Origin: an uncultured bacterium
Lineage (GTDB): Bacteria > Verrucomicrobiota > Kiritimatiellia > RFP12 > UBA1067
Direction of reading: 5' to 3'
Length of the DNA: 49,817 nt
Assembly (NCBI GenBank): GCA_902779865.1
Contig: CACZDG010000008.1
Coordinates: 1-49,817 of the forward strand
In this document: positions 1 to 30,989 of the stretch, piece after piece
How the letters are laid out: the number at the start of each line of letters is the position of its first letter
How positions within the stretch are numbered: position 1 is the first letter of the stretch
Notes under the pieces: generated by a model
What the model saw: only the letters and a program-made list of their open reading frames with translations
Told to the model about the DNA's origin: nothing
Databases searched by the model: none
Position numbers and translations under genes: made by a program

Positions 1-95
1 TCAATGGAAAGCCGTATGCGGGAAATCCGCACGTACGGTTTGACGAGGGGGAAGTCGCATCGGCGGCAACGCCGAGGCGTGGGTCTCTACTCTAC
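1..95 (+). mobile_element. Group II intron, 3' end (domains V and VI)
   Basis: A hairpin at about 9-41 has arms AGCCGTA and TACGGTT, a GCGG/CCGC upper stem and a GAAA-type loop. This is the catalytic domain V of bacterial group II introns. A second hairpin (about 46-90, stem CGGCG/CGCCG with loop GCAA) is domain VI, and the run ends in CTCTAC, matching the usual AY 3' end, so the splice junction is placed at about 95/96. Only the 3' end is in the window; the rest of the ribozyme and any reverse transcriptase/maturase must lie upstream. One reading frame through this region gives the REIRTYGL-type peptide often mis-annotated at intron ends, so no gene is called. The exact junction could be off by a few bases. 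Confidence 0.85.
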
Positions 96-6258: not shown

Positions 6259-8295
6259 ATGACAGGTTTTGATATCGCAATGGCCGGGCTGCTCTCCTTC
6301 GGACAGGTGATCCCGAGCGCACAACGTGAAATCGTGAAACACGCTGGTCTCCAGGTGATCCATGCGGACGGCGCGGTGACGCTCCGGCTGAAGGAAACGG
6401 GCCGGGAGGAGCGCGCCATCGAGGGCGGGCGCGTCGTGACGGTGAAATTGCAGGACGAGCACTATCCCGTGTACATCACACGGCACGTGCGGACGTGGAA
6501 GGACTGCGACGCCGTCGAGACGTGGTACGAGCTACGCCACGATGAGCCGGGGCCGGTGAGGCTGCTTCGCGCCGACAGCTTCGCCTCGCGGATCAACTGC
6601 CGGGCCGACGTCGTGAAAGTGCTCACGCTCACGGGCGTGTGGGCGTACGAGGGGAACATCACGGAGGCGACCGTCGCGAACGGACAGATCGCGCAGTACC
6701 GCTCGCTCGCGGGCACGCGCGATGCGTGGGAGTCGAACGCCGCGATGATGGTGAGCTTCGGGAACGAAGTAGATGAAGAGCACGGCAGGGTCCTCGGCGT
6801 GGCGCTGGAGTGGACCGGCACCACCGAGAAACGCGTGCGGCGCAGCTGGAACGGACGCGAGACGGATGTGTTCGCCGGAATCGACATGGAGACGGGTCCG
6901 TACGTCCTTGACCCCGGCAAGACCTTCACCACGCCGCGGGCGATCATCGTGTGGTCCGAGAAGGGCAAGGGCGAGGTGTCGCGCCAGTACCACCGCTGGG
7001 CGCGCCGTCACCTGATGCCGCACGGCGACGTACTGCACCCCATCCTGCTCAACACGTGGGAAGGCTCGTACTTCAGCTTCACGGAGAAGACGCTCACCGA
7101 CATGATGGACGGCGTGAAGGAGATGGGCGGCGAAATGCTCGTCCTCGACGACGGCTGGTTCGGGAAGGGCAAGTACGCCCGCGACAACAAGAACCGCGAC
7201 AAGGCCGGCCTCGGCGACTGGGTTGTGAACCCCGCGAAGCTGCCGCACGGTCTCGCCTGGCTCGCGGACGAGGCCGCCAAGCGCGGACTAAAGTTCGGCC
7301 TCTGGGTGGAGCCGGAGATGTGCAATGTGAAGAGCTGGCTTGCCGAGGCGCATCCCGACTGGATCCTGCGCGAGCAGAACCGCTCGCTCCTCCTCGGACG
7401 CGGCGGCTCGCAGGTCGTCCTCGACTACTCGAACCCGGCGGTGCGCGAGAACATCTTCAACCAGCTCGACGCCGTGTACGCGCAGGTGCCCACGCTTGCC
7501 TACGTCAAGTGGGACAGCAATCAGAACATCGTCAACCCCGGTTCCACCTACCTGAAGCCCGACCGCCAGCCGAACCTCTGGTACGACTACACGATCGGCC
7601 TCTACGACCTGCTCGCGAAGCTCCAAGCGAAGCGTCCGCAGATCATGGTGCAGGCGTGCGCCTCGGGTGGCGGGCACATGGACTTCGGATTCCTGCGCTA
7701 TGCGGACGAGTTCTGGGCGAGCGACAATACCGACCCGTTCCGCCGCGTGTTCATCCAGTGGGGCGCATCGCAATTCTATCCCGCGAGCGCGATGGCCTGC
7801 CACGTGACGCGGCGAGGCTCGTCGATGAAGTACCGCTTCGACGTTGCCATGACCGGACGCATGGGCTTCGAGCTGCATCCGACGAAGCTTTCGAAGGCGG
7901 ATGTCGAGTTTGCGAAGGCGGCAGTGGCCGACTACAAGCGCATCCGTCCGATCGTACAGCGCGGCGACCTCTACCGCCTCGTCTCGCCGTACGGCGGGAG
8001 GATGTCCGCGCTCATGTTCGCGAGCGAAGACAAGAGCGGCGCGGCGGTGTTCGCGCTCGGTCTCGACAGGGACATCATCGTGGAGGAGACGCTGCGTCTG
8101 CGCGGACTCGACCCCGATGCAAAGTACACCGTCACCGAGATCAACAAGGGCGCGAAACTCCACGCCAAGTTGCCGACGGAGCCGGTCGACGGCCGCACGC
8201 TCATGGAGAAGGGAATCGCCGTCAGGCTCTCCGGCAGGTTCGACTCCGCCTCGTTCGAGGTCGTGCGCGCTGGGAACAACACTGCGACAAAGTGA
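6259..8295 (+). CDS. Alpha-galactosidase, GH36 family
   Basis: 678 aa. An N-terminal beta-supersandwich is followed by the catalytic barrel. Visible signatures are LDDGWFGKGK, WVEPEMC, the nucleophile motif YVKWDSNQN (Asp about residue 419) and the acid/base motif WASDNTDPF (Asp about 489). The 70-residue spacing of these two acids is as expected for clan GH-D GH36 enzymes. It releases terminal alpha-1,6-galactose from raffinose-type sugars or galactomannan. There is no convincing signal peptide, so it is probably cytoplasmic, although the first 20 residues are fairly hydrophobic. The ATG at 6259 follows a weak ACGGAA site. The dus gene starts 10 bp after the stop, so the two are likely cotranscribed. 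Confidence 0.92.
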   Translation: MTGFDIAMAGLLSFGQVIPSAQREIVKHAGLQVIHADGAVTLRLKETGREERAIEGGRVVTVKLQDEHYPVYITRHVRTWKDCDAVETWYELRHDEPGPVRLLRADSFASRINCRADVVKVLTLTGVWAYEGNITEATVANGQIAQYRSLAGTRDAWESNAAMMVSFGNEVDEEHGRVLGVALEWTGTTEKRVRRSWNGRETDVFAGIDMETGPYVLDPGKTFTTPRAIIVWSEKGKGEVSRQYHRWARRHLMPHGDVLHPILLNTWEGSYFSFTEKTLTDMMDGVKEMGGEMLVLDDGWFGKGKYARDNKNRDKAGLGDWVVNPAKLPHGLAWLADEAAKRGLKFGLWVEPEMCNVKSWLAEAHPDWILREQNRSLLLGRGGSQVVLDYSNPAVRENIFNQLDAVYAQVPTLAYVKWDSNQNIVNPGSTYLKPDRQPNLWYDYTIGLYDLLAKLQAKRPQIMVQACASGGGHMDFGFLRYADEFWASDNTDPFRRVFIQWGASQFYPASAMACHVTRRGSSMKYRFDVAMTGRMGFELHPTKLSKADVEFAKAAVADYKRIRPIVQRGDLYRLVSPYGGRMSALMFASEDKSGAAVFALGLDRDIIVEETLRLRGLDPDAKYTVTEINKGAKLHAKLPTEPVDGRTLMEKGIAVRLSGRFDSASFEVVRAGNNTATK

Positions 8296-13590: not shown

Positions 13591-15657
13591 TTATTGGTTT
13601 GTGGTTTGAACGGGAGTAATCGTCACTGTGCCGGAACCAGTACCGGTGCTCTCTACCTTACTCTCTTCCGTCTTCCGGTCGCCGACTTTCCGCTCTTCTG
13701 CCTGCTTTTCCTCTATGGACCGCATGTCGAGCGACATAACGTCAGCAAACCCACCCTTCCGATCGCCCGGCTCGGCCTTGCGCCCCGAGACGTATTCGCG
13801 GCCCACGATGGCGTTCTTAGGCAGGCCGACATCCGCCGGCAAATCTGCGGGATCGGCCATGCCTAGCGTCACGAACACTATGATCTCCTTCTGCACCTTG
13901 CCGCGGCTCTTCCACCCGAACAGCTTCGGACCAATCCACGGAATCTTGCGCAGATAGGGAATGCCGGAGTCAACGTCCTCCTCCGTGGTACGCGAAAGTC
14001 CGCCGATAACCGCCGTCTCGCCGTCCTTCATCGTGAAGTCCGTCGTCAGGCGCTTGATCTGGATGATCGGATAGGACGAATATGCGGACGAATCGCCGCC
14101 GCTCACCTGATAGAAGCCAGTGGGGGAGACGTCGGTGTCGAGCTGGCTGATCGTGGGAATGATCTCCACGCTGATAAGACCATCGGGAGATATGCGCGGC
14201 TTGACCGAAAGCATGATGCCCCAGCTGAAGAACACTTCTTTCGCGAACATGAGCTTGTCCTCGCCGGGAATCGCCTCAAGCTGCGTGGAGATGTCGAGCG
14301 AGTCTGATCCGTTCGACGTGTTGCGCGTCGCCTGCACGCGGACGTTGGGGAACTTAGTCGTCATGTCCACACGCGCCTCCTTGCCGTTGGAGACGATGAT
14401 TTTCGGGTTGGAGAATATCTTGACGTCGTCCAGCCTCTCAAACGCGCTCATGGCCAAACGGAAATCGTCAACGGAAAGCTGGCCCGAGAAACCGCGCGCA
14501 TTTCGCCACGCCATGTCGTTCGCCGTGCGTCCCGCGCCGGGCGCGTCGGAGATTGAATCTGGAACCATGTAGTTTTTCGTGTAGTAGTCCACGGCAGACT
14601 TCCCCGAACTCACGTCGTTGCCGTTCGCATCAGTGACTTTCGGCGTGTACATGGTCGCCGTCTTGCCTGAGTAGTAACGAGCGACATTGCCGTTGTTGTA
14701 CTCGATGCCGCCCTCGATGTTCTTGGCGGTCGCGCCCCAGCTTTCGAGCTGGTTCCACTGCAACCCGAGCTTGTGCATCGCCTCGTTCGACACCTCAATG
14801 AAACGCGCCTCGATGTAGATTTGGGGGATGGCCCTATCAACGGAGTGGATGATCTGCTCGCAATCGGCCAAAACCTTCTCCGATGCCGTCACCACAACCA
14901 CGTTGGCGCCCTCAAAAGCAGTTGCGATCTGCTTGCCGCTCTGTTTGCCTGTCTTGGGATCGCGCCCGCCGCCGCCAAGTGTGCTGTTGAAAAGTTCGGC
15001 AAGATCCTTCGCCGATGCGTGGTTCAGCATGAACGTGCGCGTGAACACCGGTTCGAGCTGTTTGTCCTCGCTCACGAAATAGATGTCGCCACGAGGTTCG
15101 AGACGGAACTTCTTCGTGTTGAGGATGGCCTGAAGGGCGCTCAGCCACGGAACGTGCCTGAGCGACACGGACACGCGCTGCTGGAGGTTTGAGGAATCCG
15201 CCGAGATGATGTTCGCCCCTGTCGTCTTACGGAACTGGCGCAGGATGTCCGCAAGCGTCGCGTCGTCGCAGTCGATATCCACGAGCCCCGTGGAAACAGC
15301 CATCTGCGGAACGGGCTCTGGCGACGCATCCGTTGACGCCTTTGCTGCGTCCACCGCGTTTGTCGTGGGTGCGGTCGCAACAGAGTGCGACCCTCCCTGT
15401 GCAGGCGCAGCAACCGCAACTGCGTTTGTCACAACGGACGGCGGCGCCATCTTCACCTTGGGTACCTTGCGCGCGGCGTCGGCGGAGTCATCGAATTTGT
15501 CAAGGTCGATCTCGTCGGTCTCAACCGCCTCTGCGGAGGCGGGCGTGGGGACGGGGGCGGTCGCGACGGAGCGCGACCCTCCCTTCGCGGGCTCTTCTGC
15601 GAAAGTTGCGCCGCAAAGCGCGGCGAACGCAATCAGCGTTTCGAGTTTGAGTTTCAT
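13591..15657 (-). CDS. pilQ: Type IV pilus secretin PilQ (GspD superfamily)
   Basis: 688 aa, the outer-membrane pore through which the pilus leaves the cell. Residues 1-20 form a signal peptide (LIAFAALCGATFA). Residues 21-125 are a Pro/Ala-rich linker containing two GGS(R/H)SVATAP copies encoded by palindromic elements. An N-terminal STN-like domain follows (VDIDCDDATLADILRQF), then an N1-type KH domain and the C-terminal secretin barrel with KRLTTDFTMKDGETAVIGG and GIPYLRKIPWIGPKLF. The start overlaps the pilP stop in an ATGA. Its position as last pilus gene after M-N-O-P identifies it as PilQ rather than a type II GspD. Confidence 0.93.
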   Translation of the reverse strand: MKLKLETLIAFAALCGATFAEEPAKGGSRSVATAPVPTPASAEAVETDEIDLDKFDDSADAARKVPKVKMAPPSVVTNAVAVAAPAQGGSHSVATAPTTNAVDAAKASTDASPEPVPQMAVSTGLVDIDCDDATLADILRQFRKTTGANIISADSSNLQQRVSVSLRHVPWLSALQAILNTKKFRLEPRGDIYFVSEDKQLEPVFTRTFMLNHASAKDLAELFNSTLGGGGRDPKTGKQSGKQIATAFEGANVVVVTASEKVLADCEQIIHSVDRAIPQIYIEARFIEVSNEAMHKLGLQWNQLESWGATAKNIEGGIEYNNGNVARYYSGKTATMYTPKVTDANGNDVSSGKSAVDYYTKNYMVPDSISDAPGAGRTANDMAWRNARGFSGQLSVDDFRLAMSAFERLDDVKIFSNPKIIVSNGKEARVDMTTKFPNVRVQATRNTSNGSDSLDISTQLEAIPGEDKLMFAKEVFFSWGIMLSVKPRISPDGLISVEIIPTISQLDTDVSPTGFYQVSGGDSSAYSSYPIIQIKRLTTDFTMKDGETAVIGGLSRTTEEDVDSGIPYLRKIPWIGPKLFGWKSRGKVQKEIIVFVTLGMADPADLPADVGLPKNAIVGREYVSGRKAEPGDRKGGFADVMSLDMRSIEEKQAEERKVGDRKTEESKVESTGTGSGTVTITPVQTTNQ
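15373..15392. repeat. Palindromic element inside pilQ, copy B
   Basis: GGTCGCA (15373-15379), six-base loop ACAGAG, TGCGACC (15386-15392): a perfect inverted repeat followed by CTCCC. It encodes part of the linker peptide GGSHSVATAP. The arm differs from copy A by one base with the matching change in the other arm, so pairing is kept. Confidence 0.75.
15559..15578. repeat. Palindromic element inside pilQ, copy A
   Basis: GGTCGCG (15559-15565), loop ACGGAG, CGCGACC (15572-15578), followed by CTCCC. It encodes GGSRSVATAP just after the signal peptide of the secretin. It shares its loop pattern and flank with copy B at 15373. Confidence 0.75.
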
Positions 15658-16340
15658 TTCTTAGCTCCTTTACTGGGTTGCTTGCCGGCGTCGCCGGCCT
15701 TTTCAATGTACTTCGCACGAACGCGAACGAGCTTCAACGTGCCGTGGTCGGTCAATCCCTCGACGCGCCACGTGAAACGCCGCGAATCGTGGGTTATAGA
15801 AATGTAGTCGCCGTCCGAATAGACCTTGCCGTTGATGACGACGCTGGTGTTCTGGATTGCGTCGTCCTCGCGTAGCTTCACGCGTCCGCCGAACTTCAGC
15901 GTGGCGCGCGCGGCGGTCCAGTGGTCGGACGTAATCTCGCGCTTCTTGCGCTCCGCCTCCGCGCGCGCGGCGGCCTCTTTCTCGGCCTTTTCCTTAGCTT
16001 CCTTCTCAGCTTTCTCCTTAGCCGCCTTTTCGGCTGCAACCTTTGCGGCCTCGCGCGACGCCTTCTCTGCGGCGGTAATGGGTGGAGGGAGTTTGGAGGG
16101 ATCGGAGGCGGCTGGTTTCGGACGCTTGAACACTTCAGGGGAAATCGTCTCGCGCGTCCCCTCGTAGCCAATCGGCCAGAACGGATTGCGCACGCCCTGC
16201 TCAGTCGGCTCGGCGGAACACCTCGCCCCACCATACGGCCCGCTCGGCGAGCGGGCCCTACCATACGGCTCGGCGGCGGGCGTTTCACCGAACGCGGACA
16301 TGACGGCAACGGCGGCAACAATGATCATGAGGCGTTTCAT
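15654..16340 (-). CDS. pilP: PilP-like pilus assembly protein
   Basis: 228 aa. An N-terminal signal sequence (MIIVAAVAVMSAFG) is followed by a short RARSPSGPYGG stretch encoded by a palindromic element, then RNPFWPIGYEG. A long Ala/Lys/Glu helix (about 90-140) of TolA-like composition leads to a small beta domain (about 150-215) with KVYSDGDYISI and FTWRVEGL. The position between pilO and the secretin, with ATGA overlaps on both sides, and the small C-terminal beta domain fit PilP, the inner-membrane lipoprotein or anchor that contacts PilQ. No lipobox Cys is evident, so it is probably released or anchored differently from proteobacterial PilP. Sequence similarity is weak; the call rests largely on synteny. 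Confidence 0.75.
   Translation of the reverse strand: MKRLMIIVAAVAVMSAFGETPAAEPYGRARSPSGPYGGARCSAEPTEQGVRNPFWPIGYEGTRETISPEVFKRPKPAASDPSKLPPPITAAEKASREAAKVAAEKAAKEKAEKEAKEKAEKEAAARAEAERKKREITSDHWTAARATLKFGGRVKLREDDAIQNTSVVINGKVYSDGDYISITHDSRRFTWRVEGLTDHGTLKLVRVRAKYIEKAGDAGKQPSKGAKK
16230..16268. repeat. Palindromic element inside pilP with flanking direct repeats
   Basis: Arms GGCCCGCTCG (16237-16246) and CGAGCGGGCC (16248-16257) around a single G form a perfect 10-bp inverted repeat. It is followed by CTACC and flanked by direct repeats ACCATACGG (16230-16238 and 16260-16268), like a target-site duplication. It is read in frame as GRARSPSGP right after the PilP signal sequence. Confidence 0.8.
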
Positions 16341-21990: not shown

Positions 21991-22656
21991 TCAGGTTCTG
22001 GCGCGTTCAAGAACGTCTGCGGCCACAAGCGGGTTCTGGAACGTGAAGGCACAGCGTAAGGCTACCGACTCAAATATGATCCCCCCTGGCTTCACGATGG
22101 TCTTTTTGAGGTCGGCAAAGGGGATACTGATGTCAAGATCCTTCCCCGCAAACGCAACACGCCGGTTCGTGAAATAGCAGTGCGTACGCTGGCACACATA
22201 CCCATTGCTCCGGTGTCCGGGAAACGCCACGTCGCTTGGGCACCCCACGGGACGCGAGGCCATGTTGCCTATAGACGGCGCGCTCGGCGAGCGCGCCCTA
22301 CCAGATTTCACGGCTGCGGCAATGTAAAGCGTACCCTTCTCATGGAAGAAAGCCTGCTCATCGGGATCAATGGGATTCAGCCGAACCTTCTGCGCCGGAC
22401 GCGGACGGATCGACGCCACACCACCATCGGAAAGCCATTTCTCGTATCGTTCCCTATTCTGTTTGAGACGGCGGCGAATCCGCAGTTTCACAACGATCAT
22501 GGGGATGAGCAGCCAGAAAAAGGCAAAGGTGATCGTAATGAGACCAAGCGCATGCATGAACCACGGCTTGTCAAGGTTGTCCAAGTCCTGATAGACGAAC
22601 CAGAACATCCCGCCGAGGAACACAAAGGCAATCAGTTTTCTCAATGCGTAAAGCAC
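21991..22656 (-). CDS. Two-helix membrane protein with a bacterial PH/GRAM-like domain
   Basis: 221 aa starting at GTG 22656. Two transmembrane helices occupy about residues 8-25 and 35-55, followed by a basic linker (RIRRRLKQNRERYEKW). The C-terminal part has a PH/GRAM-like strand pattern: GTLYIAAAVK, then CYFTNRRVAFAGKD and SIPFADLKKT. Between these strands lies an insertion of about 45 residues (GRARSPSAPS..VAFPGHRSNGYV). Its first part is encoded by a palindromic element also found in pilP. Such proteins are presumed membrane-associated adaptors; function unknown. An extended -10 box ends 7 bp before the GTG, implying a leaderless mRNA. Confidence 0.75.
   Translation of the reverse strand: MLYALRKLIAFVFLGGMFWFVYQDLDNLDKPWFMHALGLITITFAFFWLLIPMIVVKLRIRRRLKQNRERYEKWLSDGGVASIRPRPAQKVRLNPIDPDEQAFFHEKGTLYIAAAVKSGRARSPSAPSIGNMASRPVGCPSDVAFPGHRSNGYVCQRTHCYFTNRRVAFAGKDLDISIPFADLKKTIVKPGGIIFESVALRCAFTFQNPLVAADVLERART
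22277..22303. repeat. Palindromic element inside the PH-like gene
   Basis: Arms GGCGCGCTCG (22277-22286) and CGAGCGCGCC (22288-22297) around a single G, followed by CTACCA. It is the same element as in pilP (16237-16257) with a compensatory C/G exchange in the stem. It is read in frame as GRARSPSAP. Confidence 0.8.
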
Positions 22657-24617: not shown

Positions 24618-24644
24618 TGGTAGGGCACACTCGCCAAGTGCGCC
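24618..24644. repeat. Degenerate copy of the GGTAGGG palindromic element
   Basis: GGTAGGGCACACTCGCC (24619-24635) followed by AAGTGCGCC: the flank and overall layout match the copies in pilP and the PH-like gene, with two mismatches between the arms. This copy is intergenic. Confidence 0.65.
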
Positions 24645-28663: not shown

Positions 28664-28987
28664 CTACCTCCCTGCCTTTTTCTGCCAAATCCAGACGACA
28701 AGCAACAGCAAGACAAGCCCCGCCGTTATTGCAAGGCGCGTGTGCCGCCATGCGACCTCCGGGTCAACAGGCGGCGGCACCACTTCGACCGGCTGCATCT
28801 CCGTCGCCGCTGACTGTGCTGGTTGTGGTAGGGCGGGCTGACTCCAGCCCGCCAACGTCTCTGTCGTGCGCGGCTTCACTTCCAGCCGCCCTTCCGAAAC
28901 GGCTTTCTGGTAGGACTCCTGCGCCTGCCGCATTTCCTGCTGCCGTCGCATCGTCACAAGGTCGATGTTTTCATTCGCTTCAATCAT
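28664..28987 (-). CDS. Small single-pass membrane protein in the minor-pilin operon
   Basis: 107 aa from ATG 28987; the longer frame upstream overlaps the PilX-like gene. The N-terminus is helical and charged (VTMRRQQEMRQAQESYQKAV), followed by a Pro/Gln/Ala-rich linker whose LAGWSQPALP part is encoded by a palindromic element. A C-terminal transmembrane helix (LAITAGLVLLLLVVWIWQKK) follows. The orientation suggests a tail-anchored protein with the N-terminus in the cytoplasm. It lies 22 bp after the PilX-like gene and 3 bp before the histidine kinase. No family recognised. Confidence 0.65.
   Translation of the reverse strand: MIEANENIDLVTMRRQQEMRQAQESYQKAVSEGRLEVKPRTTETLAGWSQPALPQPAQSAATEMQPVEVVPPPVDPEVAWRHTRLAITAGLVLLLLVVWIWQKKAGR
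28827..28853. repeat. Palindromic element inside a small pilus-operon gene
   Basis: GGTAGGGCGGGCTG with arms GGCGGGCTG (28832-28840) and CAGCCCGCC (28845-28853) around ACTC. It shares the GGTAGGG flank with the copies in pilP and the PH-like gene, but is inserted in the opposite orientation relative to the host gene. Confidence 0.75.
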
Positions 28988-29009
28988 ATCCCAATCCACA
29001 CATTGAACG

Positions 29010-30989
29010 TCACGGCACCTCCTGCCAGAAGAGGACCTTTGGCTTGCCCGTGCCGAGCGGCATGCCAACCATGCTATTCATCACGTTTTCAGGCGACCCG
29101 GAATAGAGACGGTAGTCCCAGTTCAGGTAGAGTTTCCCGCTGAAGATCATGCCCTCGTTGCGGCACACTAGCGAACCGTTGATCGTACACTGCCCCAGCT
29201 TGCCGAATATACCGTGGTTGTTGTAAAGAACCGCGTCGATCTGCGTAATGGTGGAGGCGCGCGAGGAAATTTCATTCGGCGCTACCACGCTGTCGTAGTA
29301 ACGGCGTCCCGTGGCTGAAGCGTAGGTATAGTGGTCAAGGACGTTCTGAATGCGTCCCCACCTATCCCTTTCCTGCCTGTAAACAGCCTGTTGCGTCACC
29401 TTGTTCCCACCGTCTGCGACGGTGTAGTTGCCTGCAAACTTGTCATTTGGTCCTGGCGTAGTGGTCTTAGGATAACCTATGTCACCATCGCTCCATGATT
29501 TCCAGGTTCCATCTTCGTTAGTCTCCTTCGCACATTCGTAGGGCTGTACGTATGGAGCCTGCGTGAGAACCTTCTTGAGAGTGGTGTCAAGCCAACTCGA
29601 TGACGTACAGTCACCCATGACGATATTACCTCTCGCTGCAAGACAAAGAAGGTCCTTGGTGGCGTTTCCGCCCCCTGAAAGAGCCCTCTTGTCCGCCCAG
29701 TTAGGAGGGTTGACGTACTGTATGTTTCCCACGATGTGGATGTTGCGGCTCGAATAGATAGTGCCCTGCCCCGTCACGTATCCCTTAATCACCACGTCAT
29801 TTGAAACCACCACGGGGCCGTTCAATCTGATGGGATTTGACTGCGTCCCTTCCAGCACTAGCGCATGGTTGTCCGGGAGCGAAGCATTGCCAGACGGCCC
29901 CGCACCCTGGTAGTACCCGTAAGTCTTATACTCCTTGTCGTCATAAGTATGCGGCATGTCCGCTTTGTTGCTATTGCGGTTGTCGATGAAATAGGTTGAT
30001 CCCTGGGAGAGCGTTGATTCCAACTCCTTGCCATACTCGATATACTCGTTGAGGTTTGAAATCCACGGCATGTCAAGACCATCATATCGAACGTGGCTAG
30101 CTTCTTCGCTTTCCCCGGAAACGTGGCCGTGGAGGCGGTTCTTCAGATCGGCGGAAGTAACCGTATCCGGTGCATTGTAACCGCCCGCGTTGTATCGAAC
30201 GTTGCTCTGGTCTGAATCGTCCTTGTAAAACGGGCGCGCGCGGTTTGAAGTGCCGTACTGGGTGCTGCGGTATGTGTTCTTGTTGTCCATCGTGCCCGTG
30301 CCGTTCGTGATTTCCCCACGAGCGCCAAGCTCCTGGTTGAAAGCGGCGTAAACTTCCCCGTTCACCTTTGGGCTTTGCGAAAGCGACATGTTGCCGTTCG
30401 CGCGCACGTCGCCGTTCGCGGTAATCGTGGAACCCTCGAACCAGCCGTAGTTGTTCACAAAATAGGCATAGTCGAACACCTTTGAACGATCCACGCCGAA
30501 CGACACCCGTTCGGCAATCGTCACACTTACCGGCATACCTCTACCGATCACGCGCGATGCCGTACCGAAAAACGTCACTTCCGCGCGGTTACCCACATCT
30601 ACCGGCGCCGACCTTATGCCCACTCTCAAATCAGTGAATCCAGGCAGCTGTTGTCTGAGCGGTTCAACGGAAGTATCGAAATTGACAACAAAACTGCCAG
30701 TTCCAATGGAGTTTGTAGTCCAACCCGACGTGAACCAGTTATAGACGTTATAGCCAAGGACTGATCTGTTTCCATTACGTTGCGCGAATGCCTCATAGAC
30801 ATCCCTCTTTACCTTCTCGATGGCGCTCAGCGCCGCTAGACGGCAACTGGATCTGGCCGCATGCATGGCGCTCTGCCTTGCGGCGAACGAGACGTAACCG
30901 AGCGTCCCCGCAAGGATCACCCCCGCGCAGAGCGCGAGGACAAGGGAGAATATCAATACGAAGCCTTCAGATGAGTGCCGCCCCTTCAT
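29010..30989 (-). CDS. Large PilX-like pilus-associated protein
   Basis: 659 aa. The N-terminus, SSEGFVLIFSLVLALCAGVI then LAGTLGYVSFAARQ, is a PilX/PilV-type hydrophobic stretch after a short basic leader, with G-F at the likely prepilin-peptidase site. A long extracellular portion follows, including FDYAYFVNNYGWFEGSTITA, ANGDVRANGNMSLS and repeated glycine-rich beta segments with turns of a right-handed beta-helix kind (PVVVSNDVVIKGYVTGQGTI). It resembles large PilX N-terminal domain proteins of PVC bacteria that sit at or near the pilus tip. It overlaps the preceding pseudopilin by an ATGA. A role in adhesion or pilus initiation is inference. Confidence 0.75.
   Translation of the reverse strand: MKGRHSSEGFVLIFSLVLALCAGVILAGTLGYVSFAARQSAMHAARSSCRLAALSAIEKVKRDVYEAFAQRNGNRSVLGYNVYNWFTSGWTTNSIGTGSFVVNFDTSVEPLRQQLPGFTDLRVGIRSAPVDVGNRAEVTFFGTASRVIGRGMPVSVTIAERVSFGVDRSKVFDYAYFVNNYGWFEGSTITANGDVRANGNMSLSQSPKVNGEVYAAFNQELGARGEITNGTGTMDNKNTYRSTQYGTSNRARPFYKDDSDQSNVRYNAGGYNAPDTVTSADLKNRLHGHVSGESEEASHVRYDGLDMPWISNLNEYIEYGKELESTLSQGSTYFIDNRNSNKADMPHTYDDKEYKTYGYYQGAGPSGNASLPDNHALVLEGTQSNPIRLNGPVVVSNDVVIKGYVTGQGTIYSSRNIHIVGNIQYVNPPNWADKRALSGGGNATKDLLCLAARGNIVMGDCTSSSWLDTTLKKVLTQAPYVQPYECAKETNEDGTWKSWSDGDIGYPKTTTPGPNDKFAGNYTVADGGNKVTQQAVYRQERDRWGRIQNVLDHYTYASATGRRYYDSVVAPNEISSRASTITQIDAVLYNNHGIFGKLGQCTINGSLVCRNEGMIFSGKLYLNWDYRLYSGSPENVMNSMVGMPLGTGKPKVLFWQEVP

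Follow-up and report, generated by a model that had tools for sequence, protein, structure and literature searches.

The short palindromic elements scattered through the genome of this uncultured kiritimatiellial bacterium are GTAG-tagged REPs, not a Rickettsia-type family, and we consider it highly probable, on the sequence comparisons set out below, that they are non-autonomous hairpins moved in trans by a single clade of RAYTs (TnpA-REP, Y1/HUH transposases). The window, that is the whole stretch of DNA analysed, is the 49,817-nucleotide contig C8 of a genome of 4.30 Mb in 272 contigs, and its closest named relatives are Kiritimatiellae of the rumen and related MAGs (RUG10619, RUG14821 and, from goat omasum, RGIG2765). 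A preliminary description of this DNA had proposed a family of small palindromes, inserted in frame in coding sequence, distinct from the Rickettsia palindromic elements and enriched in pilus genes. The in-frame family and its separateness from Rickettsia are borne out, the family can now be identified as GTAG-tagged REPs with a cognate RAYT clade, and the enrichment in pilus genes falls away.

Copies in the window and architecture of the element

The sequence GGTAGGGC occurs four times in the window, at 16255-16262 (-), 22295-22302 (-), 24619-24626 (+) and 28827-28834 (+), against 0.75 occurrences expected, and one of 100 shuffles reached four. Each occurrence is followed by a hairpin, scored in Table 1 with the covariance model R1. 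The four copies thus lie where they had been described, the two translated readings and the C/G to G/C exchange between their stems are correct, and the reading frame is open through all three genic copies. The perfect and the degenerate REP in the gene at the pilP position make up a two-unit tandem, and the ACCATACGG repeats in that gene are the tag and spacer of these two units, with a single copy at the relatives' site; a plain target-site duplication was accordingly rejected. The name pilP is that of the preliminary description; a Pfam search found no family in this gene, in the PH-like gene or in the small gene. At gathering score, Rfam gave no match at the window elements, its sole match in the window being a group II intron (RF00029, 52 bits) at 7-95 (+), where the contig begins. 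The two GGGAGGG-tagged palindromes in pilQ, at 15373-15397 and 15559-15583, translate as GGSHSVATAP and GGSRSVATAP and belong to another family of palindromes; the genus has similar hairpins (GGGAGGGGCCGCGCTTGTCGCGGCCC) at other places.

Table 1. REPs, related palindromes and host genes in the window
Feature	Position	Strand	Remarks
Weak related palindrome in pilQ	15373..15397	-	tag GGGAGGG; R1 8.9 bits; 33 bp missing from 6 relatives
Weak related palindrome in pilQ	15559..15583	-	tag GGGAGGG; R1 13.1 bits
Host gene at pilP position	15654..16340	-	228 aa; orthologues found
Degenerate older REP	16207..16232	-	GGTGGGGC, GA-bulged stem; in pilP-position gene; R1 14.4 bits
REP, perfect 9-bp stem	16237..16262	-	in frame in pilP-position gene, reads GRARSPSGP; R1 41.0 bits
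Host gene ("PH-like", label of the preliminary description)	21991..22656	-	221 aa; ORF and alignment
REP	22277..22302	-	in frame in PH-like gene, reads GRARSPSAP; R1 41.8 bits
Intergenic REP	24619..24644	+	R1 33.3 bits
Host gene, small ORF	28664..29068	-	134 aa; G005 orthologue, 57% identity
REP, 4-nt loop	28827..28853	+	antisense within the small gene; R1 29.4 bits

The element is 26 nt long and consists of an unpaired GGTAG, a 9-bp stem beginning G-G, a 3-nt loop and the complementary arm. In 1.19 Mb of this genome, the window included, 45 of 61 GGTAGGGC sites carry a hairpin in the 21 nt that follow GGTAG, with at least 7 of the 9 pairs formed, against none of the 61 when the start is shifted by 3 nt; this is an unbiased count, and the covariation based on R1, a model built from 20 distinct elements picked among the GGTAGGGC sites with at least seven pairs, leans towards structure. 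In that set, chosen for its pairing, the stem covaries behind a constant tag. Pieces of four genomes yielded 137 strict copies with 53 stem-loops, and their loop ends in CC in 123 cases. A G stands directly after the hairpin in 94% of 129 copies, the base at -1 is T (53%) or C (40%), and CT occupies -2/-1 in 34 of the 129 against a background of 5%. Single copies and direct tandem units are as common as inverted pairs. Two other tests were weak: a loose pattern, nested matches included, found 229 matches where its reversal found 153, and was replaced by the covariance model; a generic scan for GTAG hairpins returned 94, and eleven other tags made up of these letters returned 29 to 75. The elements have the properties of GTAG-tagged REPs, namely a length of 20-40 bp, a stem of 6-13 bp, a short loop, high copy number and an unpaired GTAG at one end of the palindrome. 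Single hairpins of 26 nt rule out MITEs (70-300 bp, with terminal inverted repeats of 15-30 bp), and the GGTAG tag rules out a Rickettsia palindromic element or CGTC repeat.

The preliminary description had proposed a covariance-model search of the genome, a comparison of orthologues with and without the insertion and a search for a transposase acting in trans, and had named a scarcity of further copies as a point against the family. With R1 we find 58 copies at E<=0.01 in the 1.19 Mb, which scales to approximately 200 (about 210) in the genome, and a separate count, in which 150 candidates were scored, gives at least 125. Placement was determined for 72 of 73 R1 matches, one truncated match being left out: 36 lie in called genes, 35 are intergenic and one is at an edge, in both orientations. 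The gene caller was purpose-made and missed the small gene at 28664-29068, so the copy at 28827 is counted as intergenic. Given a coding share of 84%, genic REPs are under-represented (P=2e-11), yet they make up half of the copies. The 18 same-strand genic copies fall in frames 0 and 2 and never in frame 1, the frame in which the TAG of GGTAG is a stop. Host genes include GltB (the large subunit of glutamate synthase), GH31 and GH106 glycosidases, a BACON-domain protein and a phage integrase gene with four copies. The window holds 4 of the 58 matches where 2.4 are expected (P=0.23), and pilus genes are therefore not special. Genic copies sit in stretches that are variable among relatives, as might be said of ordinary linkers in proteins whose DNA is palindromic by chance; that such conserved linkers are all that is seen here is scarcely credible, however, since the same DNA occurs in both orientations, in several frames and between genes, and orthologues exist without the copy.

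Empty sites and length differences between sister species

Empty sites in sister species are found at the pilP position, in the PH-like gene and in GltB. At the pilP position, 30 bp (the REP and 4 nt) are present here and missing from G014, G012 and G010. The copy at 16237-16262 belongs to this species only, among seven species aligned, and the older copy beside it is common to this species, G014, G012 and G010 and missing in G007 and G005. The REP of the PH-like gene is present in five species and absent from two, G003 and G004, where the gene is 33 bp shorter at that place. Neither the copy at 16237-16262 nor that of the PH-like gene, then, has the distribution that had been named as the mark of ordinary conserved protein, in which distant relatives would carry identical residues there. 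In the small gene, the corresponding linker of the G005 orthologue carries another palindrome instead.

Copy number also varies in a loop of GltB, where the unit is 33 bp, a 26-nt REP and 7 nt. No REP is present there in 14 of 19 genomes aligned; G010 and G013 have one, this genome two, G014 three and G008 an inverted pair, and G012, outside that alignment, has two. At a second site in GltB, G014 and G012 have 66 bp, including an inverted REP pair, that G010 and this genome lack; this may be a gain or a loss. Other in-frame repeats of this gene (L046 7357-12024), RTSDVGPQTSEVGSQKSE and GERGTGNGERGTGNGER, are lacking in many relatives or differ there. At one coding site a GGTAGGG REP in G010 (C16) stands opposite a row of unrelated palindromes (GAAGCGGCGAGAGCGCCGCTTCCCC and others) in G012 and G014 (C35), and insertion sites seem to be shared between palindrome families.

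For the flank-anchored comparisons we used 83 of 213, with flanks at least 80% alike and a GGTAGGG element in the first genome, and 60 of the 83 differ in length. Fifty-nine of these 60 differences are multiples of 3, the exception being an intergenic difference of 34 bp, and with both sides in called genes the figure is 50 of 50. The 50 genic comparisons represent approximately 13 loci, for which (1/3)^13 = 6e-7. Multiples of 3 are what selection on the reading frame would leave of any indel, and the in-frame copies may likewise be what selection leaves of insertions in genes: a genic copy would survive if its net gain is a multiple of 3, and would afterwards multiply and vanish as a tandem unit. 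Within genes, copy number does vary by in-frame tandem units of 30, 33 and 48 bp.

Against movement by a RAYT, many of the differences in length inside genes resemble duplication or loss of tandem units, for which no transposase is needed. The REPs might be old, with the RAYT no longer moving them, and the variation between species might come from slippage, tandem duplication and loss of existing copies only. The 33-bp units of GltB and the 48-bp units of a coding array, which differ in number between sister species, are in keeping with such a history, as are the degenerate copies. We nevertheless regard it as unlikely, because some sites have REPs in one species and none in sisters that are 95% alike, and because identical stems recur at many unrelated sites (GGCGGTCGCCCCGCGACCGCC 24 times, GGCGCGATCACCGAGCGCGCC 19 times).

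The associated RAYT clade

A candidate transposase was found with the NCBIfam model NF047646, which has nine matches in this genome, all under its curated cut-off, the best being a 222-aa ORF at C25:6461-7129 (-) with 63 bits against the cut-off of 80; matches across the genus are likewise below 80 bits, and clade members in other families exceed it (for example G083:C4, 84.2 bits). The C25 ORF contains MPDHLHLIV and FRYICNNPVRKGL, which we take to be the HUH-type and tyrosine motifs. REPs lie around and inside it, at 6372-6397, 6684-6709, 6846-6871, 7725-7750 and 7764-7789, so that the RAYT is flanked on both sides by the same REPs, as a cognate RAYT should be, and two copies in the frame of the RAYT itself read GRAGAPRTP and GVRGAPALP. 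The Pfam model PF01797 led instead to RAYTs of other clades, and the loci found with it are nearly devoid of these REPs (one weak match in 32 sources and one weak match in 30), with 39 GTAG hairpins near them against 40 in the reversed control; it was NF047646 that led to the REP-associated clade.

Several other RAYTs have palindromes of their own. The RAYT at G000:C85 (268-1124) has, in and around it, eight copies of another GTAG REP, TGCGTAG-CGACGGCG..CGCCGTCG, which read LRSDGASPS or GGAVATQ, and its frame continues into downstream protein-like sequence with no stop. A RAYT of another family at G030:C217 (30-1717) has seven hairpins TGTGG-CGACGACG..CGTCGTCG, likely a variant of the C85 type with the tag GTGG. 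A further clade, at G012:C1 (94 kb) and G010:C55 (14 kb), has repeated in-frame palindromes (AGGCGGGCGCGGAGGCCCGCCT, reading KAGAEAR..) in the C-terminal part. A REP that is similar to the present one but distinct flanks a non-clade RAYT of G124 (3.17 Mb) at 1221-1976, as three hairpins GTAG-GGCCGGCG-CTCGC-CGCCGGCC.

When 34 RAYTs are placed in a tree, those that have at least two GGTAGG hairpins within 700 bp, nine in all, form one clade (support 96/89; 97% of bootstrap trees), where shuffling gives 8.1 changes. The tree holds 34 of 50 loci; the 16 left out were fragments, weak or already covered, and three of them have an R1 match (L255, L263 and L271), and loci L268-L270 were picked since REPs were known nearby. 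REP labels were assigned by hand in this tree, with G033:C41 set to none, and automatically in a tree of 52 rows that leaves out two long-branch rows of the first; with the stricter script label, which overlooks four members of the clade, the REP group takes 5 changes. Twenty further RAYT loci, 19 of them taken regardless of REPs and one (G017:C40) chosen for a known nearby REP, gave at least two R1 matches in 6 of 6 clade members and in 0 of 14 others (P=2.6e-5); among the 14, G017:C40 has a single strong match and G066:C30 a weak one (E=0.08). The two non-clade RAYTs with clear REPs have them more than 500 bp away, G033:C41 in the form of a downstream pair with one REP at 531 bp, and G017:C40 being the other. 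Counting both sets, all 16 clade members have R1 matches.

The stems at these loci are largely different between clade members, with a few in common, and as one RAYT clade stands beside all of these REPs, one clade goes with dozens of stems. The tree sisters G095:C112 and G107:C4 have a GA-bulged REP of the same form as the older copy at the pilP position. Across the genus and the phylum, elements and transposases go together: among 31 relatives, at least four elements are found in 23 of the 24 genomes that have a Y1 transposase match and in 1 of the 7 that lack one, and among 115 Verrucomicrobiota genomes a RAYT match is present in 35 of 35 with elements against 36 of 80 without, kinship being ignored in both comparisons and the element counts per genome being lower bounds (at most 150 candidates scored in the relatives and at most 67 in the 115 genomes). 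A separate family that merely resembles the Rickettsia palindromic elements, with no relation to REPs or RAYTs, would share with those of Rickettsia the in-frame insertion in conserved genes (PMC3733652), but we hold it to be very improbable, as the tag is GTAG and not CGTC and the REPs flank and fill one RAYT clade.

Stem variation, recognition and relation to known systems

Where both sides have a GGTAG element and the flanks are 89-97% alike (24 comparisons), mostly 0-2 stem bases are different. Two loci differ by 5-8 stem bases at the same site, GltB (G012 against G010, and G012 against this genome) and C104/C46 (G010 against G012); both could be explained by loss of one of two tandem copies. 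Two differences of 9 were rejected as stem swaps, their counterparts having a decayed tag. Tandem-copy loss explains less easily the frame-open array of 48-bp units (..RPPYQGGGTN..), in which G010 has two adjacent units that are unlike at 8 of the 21 bases of the stem-loop and at 2 of the 22 of the spacer. As the difference lies in the stem-loop and hardly in the spacer, the stem was probably exchanged there after the unit had been duplicated.

On the preferred reading, movement by the clade RAYT, the enzyme would bind the single-stranded tag and hairpin, cut beside a pyrimidine and move the REP, probably as single-stranded DNA. Its recognition would ignore most of the stem, the signal most likely being an unpaired GGTAG, a 9-bp stem of nearly any sequence that begins G-G and ends C-C, and an NCC loop. 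TnpA-REP proteins cleave at CT according to PMC8266576, and the bias to T and C at -1 with the excess of CT at -2/-1 would fit such cutting. A more speculative extension, which we put forward with considerable doubt, is that the clade RAYT, reading tag, geometry and loop and not the stem, can replace the hairpin of an existing REP in place, such that genic REP sites would act as sockets for stem swaps and in-frame additions of 30-48 bp. If so, a domesticated transposase would go on altering short peptides, both in housekeeping enzymes and in its own sequence.

The kind of element is known, since REPs, RAYTs and intragenic copies have been published for Verrucomicrobia. Di Nocera et al. 2013 (PMC3733652) describe, in the portions of the article drawn on here, 24 GTAG families with alternative complementary stems, RAYT association and intragenic REPs, most of the intragenic repeats being those of a verrucomicrobium, Opitutus terrae. 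The present REPs resemble those families in the GTAG at one end, the short stem-loop, the high copy number and the RAYT association, and also in their alternative complementary stems, their occurrence as singles, inverted pairs and groups and their copies in ORFs. They differ, as far as those portions go, in being approximately half genic, in far more varied stems behind a constant GGTAGGG tag, in one RAYT clade for all stems and in the REPs inside GltB and the RAYT; they may be identical with one of the O. terrae families. In-frame copies in housekeeping genes are a likeness to the Rickettsia palindromic elements and CGTC repeats, which according to the same paper have a CGTC tag and belong to a different superfamily. 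The group 3 TnpA-REP system of Stenotrophomonas maltophilia (PMC8266576) similarly has a perfect short palindrome with a 3-nt loop, GTAG and an important loop base, and its cleavage at CT agrees with the base bias seen here; its REP is 23 nt long with an 8-bp stem, whereas the REPs here have a 9-bp stem, an NCC loop and many stems per genome. Inverted pairs, among them the 66-bp GltB pair shared by G014 and G012 and others spaced by 2 nt, recall the REPINs (PMC3116915), from which the present elements differ in that single copies and direct tandem units are equally frequent. In the titles and abstract openings of the open-access literature we found nothing on the REPs of this lineage, on one RAYT clade with many stems or on REPs inside a RAYT gene.

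In annotation of these rumen genomes, peptides of the GRARSPSAP or ARSVIAPYQ kind should be read with caution, as they derive from mobile DNA and are not conserved protein motifs. How REPs spread and what a RAYT recognises are general questions, and in this case a single RAYT clade can be traced, together with its REPs, across a phylum. Sister species differ by single in-frame copies in the widely conserved GltB, and the many stems represent natural recognition variants, which opens stem tolerance, the cut site and the cost of carrying REPs inside genes to direct tests.
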